Source of the DNA: Auricularia sp. M13 | Taxonomy: Eukaryota; Basidiomycota; Agaricomycetes; Auriculariales; Auriculariaceae | Direction: 5' to 3' | Length of the DNA stretch: 64,000 nt | Assembly (NCBI GenBank): GCA_037042915.1 | Contig: CM073203.1 | Span: forward strand, 1,984,001-2,048,000 | Shown: piece by piece, positions 25,902 through 49,145 of the stretch | Layout: every line of letters starts with the position of its first letter | Numbering within the stretch: position 1 is the stretch's first letter | The notes under the pieces: model-generated | Seen by the model: the letters and a program-made list of their open reading frames with translations, nothing else | Databases searched by the model: none | What the model was told of the DNA's origin: nothing | Made by a program: the position numbers and the translations under genes

Positions 25902-26732
25902 GTTGGTGCCGGAATTTTGCGAGCCCCACGGCACTCTGCGTGCAAAGCGCGTTTTGGCCTTGTCCATCACTTGCCCATCATTTGTCCATCACTTGTCCGC
26001 GATTTGTCCATCATTTGTCCGACAAGAGACCGTCAAGAGCTTCCAGGGACTCCAAACGAGAGCAGACACCCCGACAGCCATATATCTCCGGAAGGCTGAC
26101 GATCGTGGCTACGCGATGGTGTCGCTACCTCGGCCGTCCGTTGCCAAAGCAACCCGGAATACCTGCCGATGTCACGAAACCCGGACAAGGAGCCGTATCT
26201 CCGCGAGGGGTGCAGCTAAACCCGCGGGACGACGAGCGCACGCATTCTGGACGAGAGCCCAACAAATCCCCGACAAATGATGGACAAATGATGGACAAGG
26301 CGTCGACAAGGAGCCGTATCTCGACGAGGAGTGCAGCCGAAACCGCGGGACGAAGACCAAACACGTTCCAGACGTGAGCCCGACCGATTGCCAACAAATG
26401 ATGGACAAATGATGGACAAGGGACCCACAAGAGCCAATGGCGACCCCAGTTGGACCCCGATCGTCGGACACCCATATATCTCCGGGGAGCTCTCGCGAGG
26501 GTCTACGCGATGGTACCCTTCACGAGGCTGTGCGCCGTCATGGCAACGCGCAATTTTCGCCGATGCGACAAAATCCGAAATGGGCGACCGCAAACCCTGC
26601 CGAGGTTACCTATTAATATGTCGCCCGATCCCGATGGTATCAGGATGAAAAGCTTCCAGGGGACGCAATATCGGAGATAGCCGGTCGGCGGAACGTCAGA
26701 AATTTATCGACGCCCTCAGAAAACATTCCGGA
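25902..26732 (+). repeat. satellite monomer 1 (831 bp)
   Basis: Bounded by successive GTTGGTGCCGG words. Monomer 2 matches it closely from its start to about 27441. Confidence 0.85.
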
Positions 26733-46332: not shown

Positions 46333-47128
46333 CGTTGATATCAGCAGCATGAGGCGTATTTTTGCCGATCTTGCGTTGTGCTAGTTCTGCTCGGTGCCTT
46401 ACAGCTCAACTGCCAGTAATTTCGGAGCCACGCATCGCCCTTTTGGTCCTCCTTTTCGATGCAGCATTCCGCTAGTCCTGTCAGCATATCTAGGGTATTA
46501 TGCTTTAAGATGATTGTGCTTACAAGATGTCGCCGCTGTGAACCAGCAGTTCTGTGTGTGCTGGCGTGTAACCCATTAGAAGACATGTTAGTGATATACA
46601 CAGCATTTGTATTTCCAGTTCTTTCCTGCTCTGATTGAACCTATCGCTCACTGATTGGTGCCCATCAACCCGTTCTGGGGGCTGAGTAAAACGGTGTATC
46701 TATATTTTTTCGATGTATCCGGATAGCCTTCCGCCGGATCTGAAATGTTACCAAGGAGGCGAAAAAGGAGAGAGAAGGGAGGGGGTTACATCGATTCCAC
46801 GCGGCGTCTGCGATGTGGTACTTGTTAGCACACGCAGAGCGGTCGTTCCGCCATGGGACCTCCCCGTCTTGTGTATATATCCTATCCTATATCCTATCCT
46901 ATCCTTCTGAATCTGCCATCGCCGCCAGGTAGTTCCAACCTGTACAGCCGCTTGCATGCCAACTTCAAACATACGCACGCTCTAAAGTCTGTTTGCCGCG
47001 TCGTGCGGAGTCACGTGGACGGATCTCAATTCGCGCATGATGCGAAGTGTATTCACTCGCGCGGAAGTCATAGTCAATCGGAGGCGACGACGCAGATACT
47101 TGACGCGCGCCTGAGGAACTTTACAGCC
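46333..47128. other. intergenic sequence with a TATCC microsatellite
   Basis: No gene recognised. A short TATCC/CCTAT simple repeat is at 46875-46905. Confidence 0.5.
46875..46905. repeat. (TATCC)n-like microsatellite
   Basis: Irregular copies of CCTAT with interspersed TATAT, about 31 bp. Confidence 0.75.
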
Positions 47129-47130
47129 AC

Positions 47131-48517
47131 CATCAGGAAAAATTTTCTGCTACATAGTTCGGGAAATTTGTATAGGTGCTTGTAGCTCTGCATAGAGAGG
47201 TGATATTATAGAACACTCTGTAGTTTCTTGTAGAAACCGTGTTCTCTGTAGTTCCCTGTAGTTCTCTGTAGAACTCGTAATCTACATAGTGATACATATA
47301 TTGGCTGATTCTACAGTACATCCATGTTGAACTATATATTGCAGGACAGGGTTCAGAGTACTAGATGATGGCTGGGGCCTATGCATTGCACCCTGGCTGT
47401 GCAAAGCACACCTTCCACTGTACGCACACACTTTATTACTATGTCATGCATCACAGAGGTCATGCGGTGTGAATGCCCTTGGTTTTGAGGTGTCACAGTC
47501 AATTTTGGGGCTCAAAGAGTCCAAATCAGGCCCAAATTTTCATCGCTGGTTTGTGGCGCTCACCCAGATCATTCCCATCATGTAAAGGCTTTCTCATTGA
47601 CTTCTGACTTCCCTAGAGCGGTGAGAGTCCCAGTTCCATTGCTTGGAGAAGCTTAGAAAGACTCACAAGTGTTCATTGCCTGACCAAAACCTGAGCGACC
47701 CTGGTAAACATCACCAGTCACAGATGGGCTGGACGTGTCACAGCAGTTCAGGTGCTGGTAATAGGCATGTGTGTACAGCACACTGCCTTGATTTCTGCAC
47801 ATAGAATGGTCTACCACTCGCTTGAATTACTTTTATACAACTGTGAGAGGGTGGATAGTCCCCCAGCTGAGCTTGCCCACTGTTTGGCTGTAATAAAGTG
47901 CAACACTTATCATGACCTTGACTCCAGACAGGCCTTCAGTTAATCAGCTCAGGTCATATCTCACACAATGATCTCCACATTACTTAGTTGTCAACTAGAA
48001 GTCAGCAGAAAGCAGGACTCTTGACTGCTTATGGGACTGTACTTGTGTGTTGCTTAGAGAGGCTGTTTGTATTGTACTGGCGCGTTGCCTACTATTAAGG
48101 CTTAATAGCGCAGTTGGTAACATGCGGTTTTGCTGAAGTTCCTCAGGTGCTCTCAAGAGAGCGCGAGTTCAAGTCCGGCTCAGGGCGTCAGTGTGAGTAA
48201 GTAATTCAACAGTGAGTAAAGTCAACCATAGCAGCTGTACATAATTTCAATAGTAAGTAATAAGTAACTACTCGGCTATAACAAAGAAATTCAAAATTAG
48301 TCATATATGTTTTCTTATTGGCTGGTATGTGACTGATTCTACATAGAACTACAGGCTCCTACAGAGGTCATTTCTACAGAGTACTACAGAGAAGTAGGGA
48401 ACTACAGAGCTCTACAGTGTGCTACGGTAGTGTTCTATAAAGGGGTTAGTCCTACAGGCCTACAGGACCTACCAGGACCTATGTTGGTCTACATGGTAAG
48501 AAGAATTTTTCCTGATG
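47131..48517. mobile_element. 1387-bp non-autonomous TIR transposon with 2-bp duplication
   Basis: The left end is CATCAGGAAAAATTTTCT and the right end, reversed, CATCAGGAAAAATTCTTC; the first 14 bases are identical. AC flanks both sides (47129-47130, 48518-48519). The left subterminal 180 bp is filled with TGTAG words and the right 220 bp with CTACAG words, so the arrays are mirror images. The interior has no convincing gene but includes a tRNA-like stretch at 48100-48190. End sequence, duplication length and subterminal layout parallel the element at 4260-5665. Confidence 0.85.
48100..48190 (+). repeat. tRNA-derived, SINE-like sequence with pol III A and B boxes
   Basis: TAGCGCAGTTGG (48106-48117) matches an A box and GAGTTCAAGTCC (48165-48176) a B box at tRNA-like spacing. 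The acceptor stem does not pair and the T-stem is imperfect, so it is not a working tRNA. AT-rich GTAAGTAA-type repeats follow, as in SINE tails. Confidence 0.5.
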
Positions 48518-48519
48518 AC

Positions 48520-49145
48520 GTGTCGGCAACTTGAGTCCACCGGCAGTGAACGGGCTTTTATCCGGCGCTGGTTTTAGCGCCTCGTTCACGCTCTGTATCA
48601 TGAAATATCTGTTTAGAGATGATTATTGTGCGTGAAACTTGTTGACTCGGCCGTCAGGCGCCGCCGCACGCTCCGGACCGCTGAGCACCATGAGCAATAC
48701 CCAATTACTGCAATCTCACTCTCTGGAAGTTTATCGTTGGCAGAAAACGCCTTGCGGAGTGTATTGACGTCGCGTGAGACGGGGATTTGGTGCCCGACGA
48801 GTTTGACAGGACGCGAATCTGCTTAAACGGGCGCTAACATTCAAATCCGATACTCGCCGATGACCGCTATTCCGCGGTTCGAGAGTGCGGTGAAAAAGCA
48901 GGTGAAACGCACGTCGAGTCCGCAAGTTGGTGAGTCACTGGCAGTGCGTCACCGAGGCTAATCAGTGTATGCCCACTAGGCGGCAAATACAGCAGGCCGT
49001 GTTGCGGTATGCGTAGCACTACTAACTCCATATTAATAACCTGGTACACGTACGAGCCTATAAAACGCAGGGGGATTCGCGCCGGTGCATCCTCACTTGT
49101 ATTTCACTCACCCAAAAGTTACCCTCCACCCTCTAGTACTACAAC
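48520..49145. other. upstream region of the UbiA gene
   Basis: No coding signal. A TATAAAA at 49058-49064 lies about 85 bp before the UbiA start codon and may be its TATA box. Confidence 0.4.

Follow-up and report, generated by a model that had tools for sequence, protein, structure and literature searches.

Two short elements in an Auricularia genome are recently inserted, non-autonomous members of the Plavaka transposon superfamily

Two short elements, here called E1 and E2, were analyzed in a 64,000-nucleotide stretch of contig CM073203.1 of Auricularia sp. M13 (hereafter the window). They are further members of an already known transposon superfamily, Plavaka, and come from different subfamilies of it. 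The overall reading, that both are short, recently inserted, non-autonomous members of these CMC-like DDE cut-and-paste transposons and move by the mechanism outlined below, is assigned a probability of about 0.93. The original description of Plavaka is reportedly that of Iyer et al. in 2014. The analysis places a puzzling element pair in a named superfamily and documents recent insertion by empty sites, and this one genome offers termini, array words, and transposase cores for comparison across 16 lineages. The initial annotation, which had noted similar ends beside different subterminal arrays and proposed a common superfamily, was confirmed in its observation and right in its proposal; exchange of arrays between subfamilies is supported by the comparisons, and the function of the arrays and the protein that would read them are putative.

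Insertion sites, ends, and coding content

Both elements are genuine insertions with 2-bp target-site duplications, as demonstrated by paralogous empty sites (Table 1). The site lacking E1, C11:2748600-2749900, carries a single TG and shows one mismatch to the E1 flanks over 1162 bases on the left side and none over 141 bases on the right side. The site lacking E2, C11:426900-427560, carries a single AC and agrees with the E2 flanks joined once at 655 of 661 bases; the paralogous copy of these flanks spans C11:426900-427952. The simplest reading of the empty sites is that both insertions postdate recent duplications of their hosts. Together with a re-reading of the sequence, these sites bear out the coordinates, ends, and 2-bp duplications given at the outset for both elements.

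Table 1. Coordinates within the window of E1, E2, their duplications and arrays, and the gene interrupted by E1
Feature	Start	End	Strand	Description or basis
E1	4260	5665	+	Non-autonomous Plavaka element, 1406 bp; empty site and end matches to elements with a Plavaka core
TG target-site duplication, E1 left copy	4258	4259	.	One TG in empty site
TG target-site duplication, E1 right copy	5666	5667	.	One TG in empty site
E1 left array, GGAGC/GCTCC (GCTCCGGAGC-type)	4274	4459	+	3 GGAGC and 3 GCTCC in 186 bp; shuffle means 0.3 and 0.6
E1 right array, GGAGC/GCTCC (GCTCCGGAGC-type)	5466	5651	-	5 GGAGC and 2 GCTCC; shuffle means 0.5 and 0.5
E1 host: duplicated transposase-like gene interrupted by E1	3106	8759	-	Near-identical copy of the region without E1 at C11:2745644-2749900
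E2	47131	48517	+	Non-autonomous Plavaka element, 1387 bp; empty site and end alignment to C6:236548-244435
AC target-site duplication, E2 left copy	47129	47130	.	One AC in empty site
AC target-site duplication, E2 right copy	48518	48519	.	One AC in empty site
E2 left array, CTGTAG, mostly inward	47145	47330	+	6 GTAG; shuffle mean 1.8
E2 right array, CTGTAG inward (CTACAG on + strand)	48318	48503	-	12 GTAG; shuffle mean 2.8

On the forward strand, E1 begins with CATCGGTAAAAATT and closes with ATTTTCCACCGATG between two copies of TG, and E2 begins with CATCAGGAAAAATT and closes with AATTTTTCCTGATG between two copies of AC. Read inward, the ends are CATCGGTAAAAATT and CATCGGTGGAAAAT for E1 and CATCAGGAAAAATT at both sides for E2. 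The shared pattern first proposed, CATC-R-G-NN-AAAATT, is exact at three of these four ends and fails at the right end of E1 (CATCGGTGGAAAATCC). Stop-to-stop frames reach at most 145 aa in E1, and a search of E2 for such frames of at least 110 aa found none. As a whole, E2 has one other long match, at C11:1837571 (about 97% over positions 1-949, with the right part missing); a relative of E1 at C12:943240-944445 has damaged ends, and no duplication was obtained for it.

The gene that E1 interrupts had been suggested as the type of zinc-finger DDE transposase to look for in full-length copies. This suggestion is abandoned: the gene gave no Plavaka match at E 0.001 or in a looser scan, with nothing else convincing in Pfam, and it is ruled out as the transposase for E1 and E2, being the host that E1 landed in. 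It contains CRAC..H..H and VLHVILLGIVKYFW stretches and has diverged partial relatives on C1, C2, and C10.

Transposase-bearing partners in the same genome

Searches for ends, transposases, and arrays covered this one genome (52 Mb), in which the Pfam family PF18759 (Plavaka) has 87 matches, none of them within the window, and in which transposase-bearing relatives measure 5.5-9.5 kb. Ends of the E1 type accompany a Plavaka core in two elements, designated A, at C4:3563320-3571809 (8.5 kb) and C13:40448-48349 (7.9 kb); the outer 169 and 167 bases of E1 match both ends of these elements at 79-87%. The 14-base end of E2, CATCAGGAAAAATT, occurs at seven sites, two being E2's own, one belonging to a truncated E2 copy, and three belonging to elements of 7.9, 8.9, and 9.5 kb with a Plavaka core (C6:236548-244435, designated B; C6:3772802-3781679; C10:3464120-3473648). 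At the seventh, C4:4380464 (end at C4:4380477), no partner end and no Plavaka core was found nearby. With hmmscan, PF18759 was matched at E=2.5e-91 by the frame of element B and at 5.4e-88 by that of one C element. Transposase-bearing copies of both types thus match PF18759, in agreement with the proposal of a single superfamily.

Alignment of 200-bp ends, each judged against 60 shuffles, pairs the left end of E1 best with the A 3' ends (score 172; best shuffle 30) and its right end with the A 5' ends (228; best shuffle 24), so that the left end corresponds to the transposase-3' side and the right end to the transposase-5' side of the transposase-bearing relatives. For E2, the left end aligns best to the B 3' end (39; best shuffle 24) and the right end to the B 5' end (54; best shuffle 23), a less sharp pairing than that of E1, as its left end reaches 33-35 against the C 5' ends and the opposite end of B as well. 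The closest transposase-bearing relative matches E2 in short outer stretches only, and is therefore at most a candidate for the element that moves E2. One of the partners, the C element on C10, also contains a 517-aa frame (C10:3468474-3470024, minus strand) with a match to PF24550 (MGM1 dynamin-like GTPase stalk; E 2.7e-12), which may be part of a host gene that the element captured.

For Agaricomycotina, the main text of Kojima 2025 (PMC12730594) describes PlavakaA, with termini TGT..ACA and 2-bp duplications, and PlavakaB, with termini CATCA..TGATG and duplications of 2 or 3 bp. The termini of E2, CATCAGG..CCTGATG, have exactly the PlavakaB form, and the 2-bp duplications seen at the empty sites of E1 and E2 fall within its range. 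The termini of E1, CATCGG..CCGATG, depart from it at the fifth base; E1 is therefore placed in Plavaka by its transposase-bearing partners and not in the published B lineage by its ends. Partner transposases resemble those of PlavakaB, as far as that text describes them, in their C(2)C and H(3)H motifs: CPKC and HSLVHY stand in the core of D_C1a and CPVC and HSLSHY in B, in line with C(2)C and H(3-4)H, and CPxC and HxxxH motifs are present in both E1-type and E2-type transposases. Unlike the published CATCA, E1-type ends in this genome read CATCGG or CATCTG, and many elements end in CTTCTG..CAGAAG, beyond the CA..TG rule of that text. As Plavaka elements with CATCA..TGATG ends and 2-3-bp duplications are already published there, E1 and E2 do not constitute a new superfamily, and the original alternatives of a CACTA variant or a separate group both give way to Plavaka.

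PlavakaA itself was rejected because its TGT..ACA termini differ from those of E1 and E2, as was KDZ (Zisupton), which requires an 8-bp target-site duplication in place of the 2 bp seen at the empty sites. The Plavaka families of Marasmius oreades are likewise defined by pfam18759, with a terminal motif reported in the supplement, and in the available text of that study non-autonomous families are classed by the ends and duplication of autonomous ones (PMC8290104). In the main text of PMC12730594, to which this statement is confined, the words 'subterminal' and 'zinc finger' and all DUF names are absent. The literature searched here contained nothing that combined Plavaka with 'subterminal', an absence claimed for this search only.

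Array words, termini, and transposase cores

Each element carries an array of short words at both ends (Table 1). Compared with dinucleotide shuffles, the whole of E2 holds 16 TGTAG against 1.6 expected and 12 CTGTAG against 0.6, and E1 holds 8 GGAGC against 1.0. The initial description of the arrays as mirror images stands mostly for E2, whose left side has 6 TGTAG and 3 CTACA and whose right side has 0 TGTAG and 10 CTACA. It says little for E1, because GCTCCGGAGC words are nearly palindromic.

Among 5-6-mers enriched over dinucleotide shuffles, GGAGC/TCCGGA characterizes A, D, and F (GGAGC in E1), CTGTAG is found in both B and E2, and CATAG marks C. Other words are GCTCAC/TGCTC in T_C6 and T_C11, AGAGC/CTCCGG in T_C1, T_C7, and T_C3b, and, more weakly, ATAGC, CATAG, and CTGTA in T1. 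The T2a group of this word analysis took in one end (T_C3b2) later assigned to a separate 1.1-kb element. Ends are known on the 3' side only for T_C1, T_C11, T_C3b, and T_C7, and five Plavaka loci (B_C3, F_C5, T_C12, X_C4, X_C7) as well as 23 weaker loci have no defined ends. One of each near-identical element pair was left out of the array, 16-lineage, and Mantel counts. A genome-wide search with array words that made no use of end sequences yielded nothing useful.

Terminus and array word vary separately, as different words occur under like ends and like words under different ends. Across 16 lineages with differing words (GCTCCGGAGC, CTGTAG, CATAG), mean identity of the 3'-terminal 12 bases is 83%. 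Between A/D/F and B/C, cores are 37-44% identical and the 3'-terminal 12 bases 75-92%, with an array 4-mer cosine of 0.21-0.41; B and C both have CATCAGG ends, with cores 55% identical and an array cosine of 0.29. Conversely, A/D/F and the T2 group differ in their ends and have a mean core identity of 42% and an array similarity of 0.50 (46% and 0.42 for A/D/F and T1), F_C3b joins a CATCAGG 3' end to GCTCCGGAGC-type words, and words of this type are common to CTTCTG and CATC elements.

In a tree of the cores, built from this genome's copies only, B and C group together with support 100 and A, D, and F with support 81; CTTCTG-ended loci form two groups between them (support 100 and 50). Because a single, very divergent copy sets the root, any order of terminus change read from this tree would be provisional. 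Core identity and array similarity are correlated over the 16 lineages (r 0.56, permutation p 0.0002), and shared ancestry accounts for part of this correlation. The suggestion that members of the superfamily have replaced their arrays is thus retained in part: subfamilies do differ in their arrays, and array exchange between them is supported by these sequence comparisons, but 'replaced' may be too strong, as GCTCCGGAGC, GCTCTGGAGC, GCTCACGAGC, GCTATAGC, and GTAGC look, by eye, like drifted forms of one AGC half-site.

A divergent DUF6532 neighbor and a putative mechanism

The domain PF20149 (DUF6532) has 41 matches in the genome, merged by hand into 25 loci (the weaker Plavaka matches were likewise merged into 23). 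Of these 25, 23 are located upstream of a strong Plavaka core and run on the strand opposite to it, at gaps of 0.6-11.3 kb; in 2000 trials of random placement, the mean count was 0.28 and the largest 3. Conversely, 23 of 25 strong Plavaka cores have a divergent DUF6532 neighbor, the exceptions being B_C3 and F_C5, and none of the 23 weaker Plavaka loci has DUF6532 beside it. This uncharacterized domain looks like the second protein of the Plavaka family. The two lone DUF6532 loci, C11:1368784-1369321 and C7:2594906-2595163, have no Plavaka match within 80 kb and may be remnants or reflect an independent use of the domain. In the available part of a published account of two Ganoderma species, DUF6532 and Plavaka appear side by side, unconnected, among the domains, and no statement of the link was found in the literature searched.

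In the proposed mechanism, E1 and E2 would obtain their enzyme from transposase-bearing relatives in the same genome, the likely source, whose proteins have a zinc-finger-like motif N-terminal to the PF18759 core. The conserved terminal bases, CATC../..GATG or CTTC../..GAAG, would be where the catalytic core cuts, and insertion into a target opened with a 2-bp stagger would produce the 2-bp duplications. The subterminal words (GCTCCGGAGC-type in E1, CTGTAG in E2) may serve as multiple docking sites that limit each transposase to members of its subfamily; either the transposase zinc finger or the divergently encoded DUF6532 protein would do the docking. More broadly, Plavaka could be a two-protein system with a two-part address, in which a conserved terminus is cut by the core, a swappable array is read by DUF6532, the zinc finger, or both, and terminus and array evolve separately; we offer this model tentatively, at close to an even chance. 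If it is true, a new subfamily with a changed array word would be shielded from the passengers of its relatives, and DUF6532, so far without a function, would be a transposition (or anti-silencing) protein. The DUF6532 link itself offers a testable role for a domain of unknown function.

Of 23 loci scanned, 20 have the zinc-finger-like motif at a distance of 0.57-0.67 kb upstream of the core (counted by eye); it is atypical in X_C7, incomplete in D_C1b, and absent from B_C3, and F_C3b has CxC for CxxC. Its form is C2HC in E1-type families (..QDFKNHR.. or similar) and C2H2 in B and C (..QGR..H..). In partial Mantel tests on 15 lineages (D_C1b left out), core identity given the finger remained correlated with array similarity (0.36, p 0.006), and the finger given the core did not (partial r -0.07, permutation p 0.70). 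Beyond the core, then, the finger explains no array similarity, and the tests do not mark it out as the array reader.

This null result favors a different assignment of one step, in which the DUF6532 protein alone reads the arrays, as a TnpA- or VANC-like accessory, and the finger has another role; Plavaka membership is not at stake in that choice. The divergent position of DUF6532 at 23 of 25 loci points the same way. VANDAL transposons are plant Mutator-like elements. In VANDAL, according to the available text of PMC5735166, related transposons have arrays of different short words, which are bound in a family-specific manner by diverging element-encoded VANC proteins. Set against such a role, DUF6532 has no recognized DNA-binding domain, and 150 aa of one copy showed no solved-structure relative by sequence; we rate it somewhat below an even chance. 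The parallel also has limits, in that the VANDAL words are tandem repeats in the element's non-coding parts, and binding and loss of methylation were demonstrated there (PMC5735166), whereas protein binding to the arrays here is putative. If the arrays under the proposed docking mechanism are indeed addresses, Plavaka would provide a tractable fungal case of transposon lineages ceasing to move each other's copies, comparable to VANC and VANDAL in plants.

Position and composition of the array words

The words are putative binding sites; a rival reading takes them for compositional by-products, for example of methylation-linked C-to-T change on silenced ends. In favor of the latter, some words are only a few changes apart, and array GC is 38-46% in E2 and 60% in E1. 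However, the words are enriched over dinucleotide shuffles and are confined to or concentrated at the ends: in E2, TGTAG/CTACA is limited to the two outermost 200-bp bins (GTAG/CTAC, which is shorter, also occurs three times inside), nearly all TGTAG/CTACA and CATAG/CTATG of E2, B, and C lie within 200-400 bp of an end, and the words of E1 and A are concentrated at the ends, with some inside. In addition, E2 words mostly point inward, and the words also occur in long transposase-bearing elements. A by-product origin is accordingly regarded as very improbable.

Duplication length and end-like sites across the genome

An exact 2-bp duplication was found in 41 of 46 elements, and none was longer; those without it are A_C4, D_C1a, C3:382381, C9:1117384, and C8:595198. 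The set comprises 13 elements for which both ends are known, among them E1 and E2 (11 with an exact 2-bp duplication), 30 pairs picked blind by end pattern and spacing (27 with exactly 2 bp, one with 1 bp, two with none), and three further elements (3/3). The end pattern CWTCKGTAAAAA has 116 sites in the genome against 15 for its reversed control. Among the 100 of these sites listed, 68 form 34 inward-facing pairs (+ then -) 1.0-9.1 kb apart, of which two were already in the 13-element set, 30 made up the blind test, and two are among the further three; in the third of these (T_C5), one listed site is combined with an end that carries a single base change. The set excludes unpaired sites and two pairs of wider spacing (12.5 and 22 kb). 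The same pattern search also revealed the 5' end of T_C10. The initial annotation would have been contradicted by unrelated ends, other duplication lengths, or a different transposase in each autonomous copy; in this genome, end-like sites are in excess, the duplication length is constant (41 of 46), and transposase-bearing copies of both types match one family, so that it was not contradicted.

These data also weigh against CACTA/EnSpm. Dense short subterminal repeats, direct and inverted, are present in E1 and E2 and recall that superfamily, as do CA..TG termini and the presence of two genes (PMC8978399 and PMC12730594, in their available text). The differences lie in the terminal bases (CATC, not CACT(A/G)), the duplication length (2 bp, not 3), and the transposase family (PF18759); CACTA/EnSpm membership is ruled out on these grounds and is barely credible. 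Barely credible as well is chance convergence of two unrelated superfamilies on similar ends, for which one could cite cores only about 40% identical between the two subfamilies and interiors of E1 and E2 that match neither one another nor their partners, short stretches aside, but which is contradicted by matches of both types to PF18759 far above the cut-off, common CxxC/HxxxH motifs, a divergent DUF6532 gene in both, 3'-terminal 12 bases 75-92% alike, and a common 2-bp duplication.

Other repeats

Among the 100 listed sites of the pattern CWTCKGTAAAAA, CTTCTG..CAGAAG ends form 22 pairs 1.0-1.9 kb apart, several near-identical at their ends (for example, C1:5265062-5266551 and C8:3458532-3460022). 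All but one of the 22 are flanked by an exact 2-bp duplication; they are apparently a recently active non-autonomous group. Within E2, window positions 47408-47469 (E2 positions 278-339) match, over at most 62 bp and at 81-83%, repeats at C10:616583 and C1:8783771, which are 98% alike over 387 bp. Positions 48105-48187, also in E2, look tRNA-like by eye (GCGCAGTTGGTAAC..GAGTTCAAGTCC); a tRNA is not supported, as ARAGORN (bacterial setting) reported none in the window and Rfam gave one sub-threshold match in 46900-48800. Finally, CATCGGCGAAAATT, which resembles a Plavaka end, perhaps by chance, and has one copy in the window at 26552-26565 (minus strand), recurs, among the matches listed, mostly every 1.56 kb or so near three contig ends (C4:4505220-4549024, C5:4366699-4405780, and C7:3156-34384), as if it were part of a subtelomeric tandem repeat.
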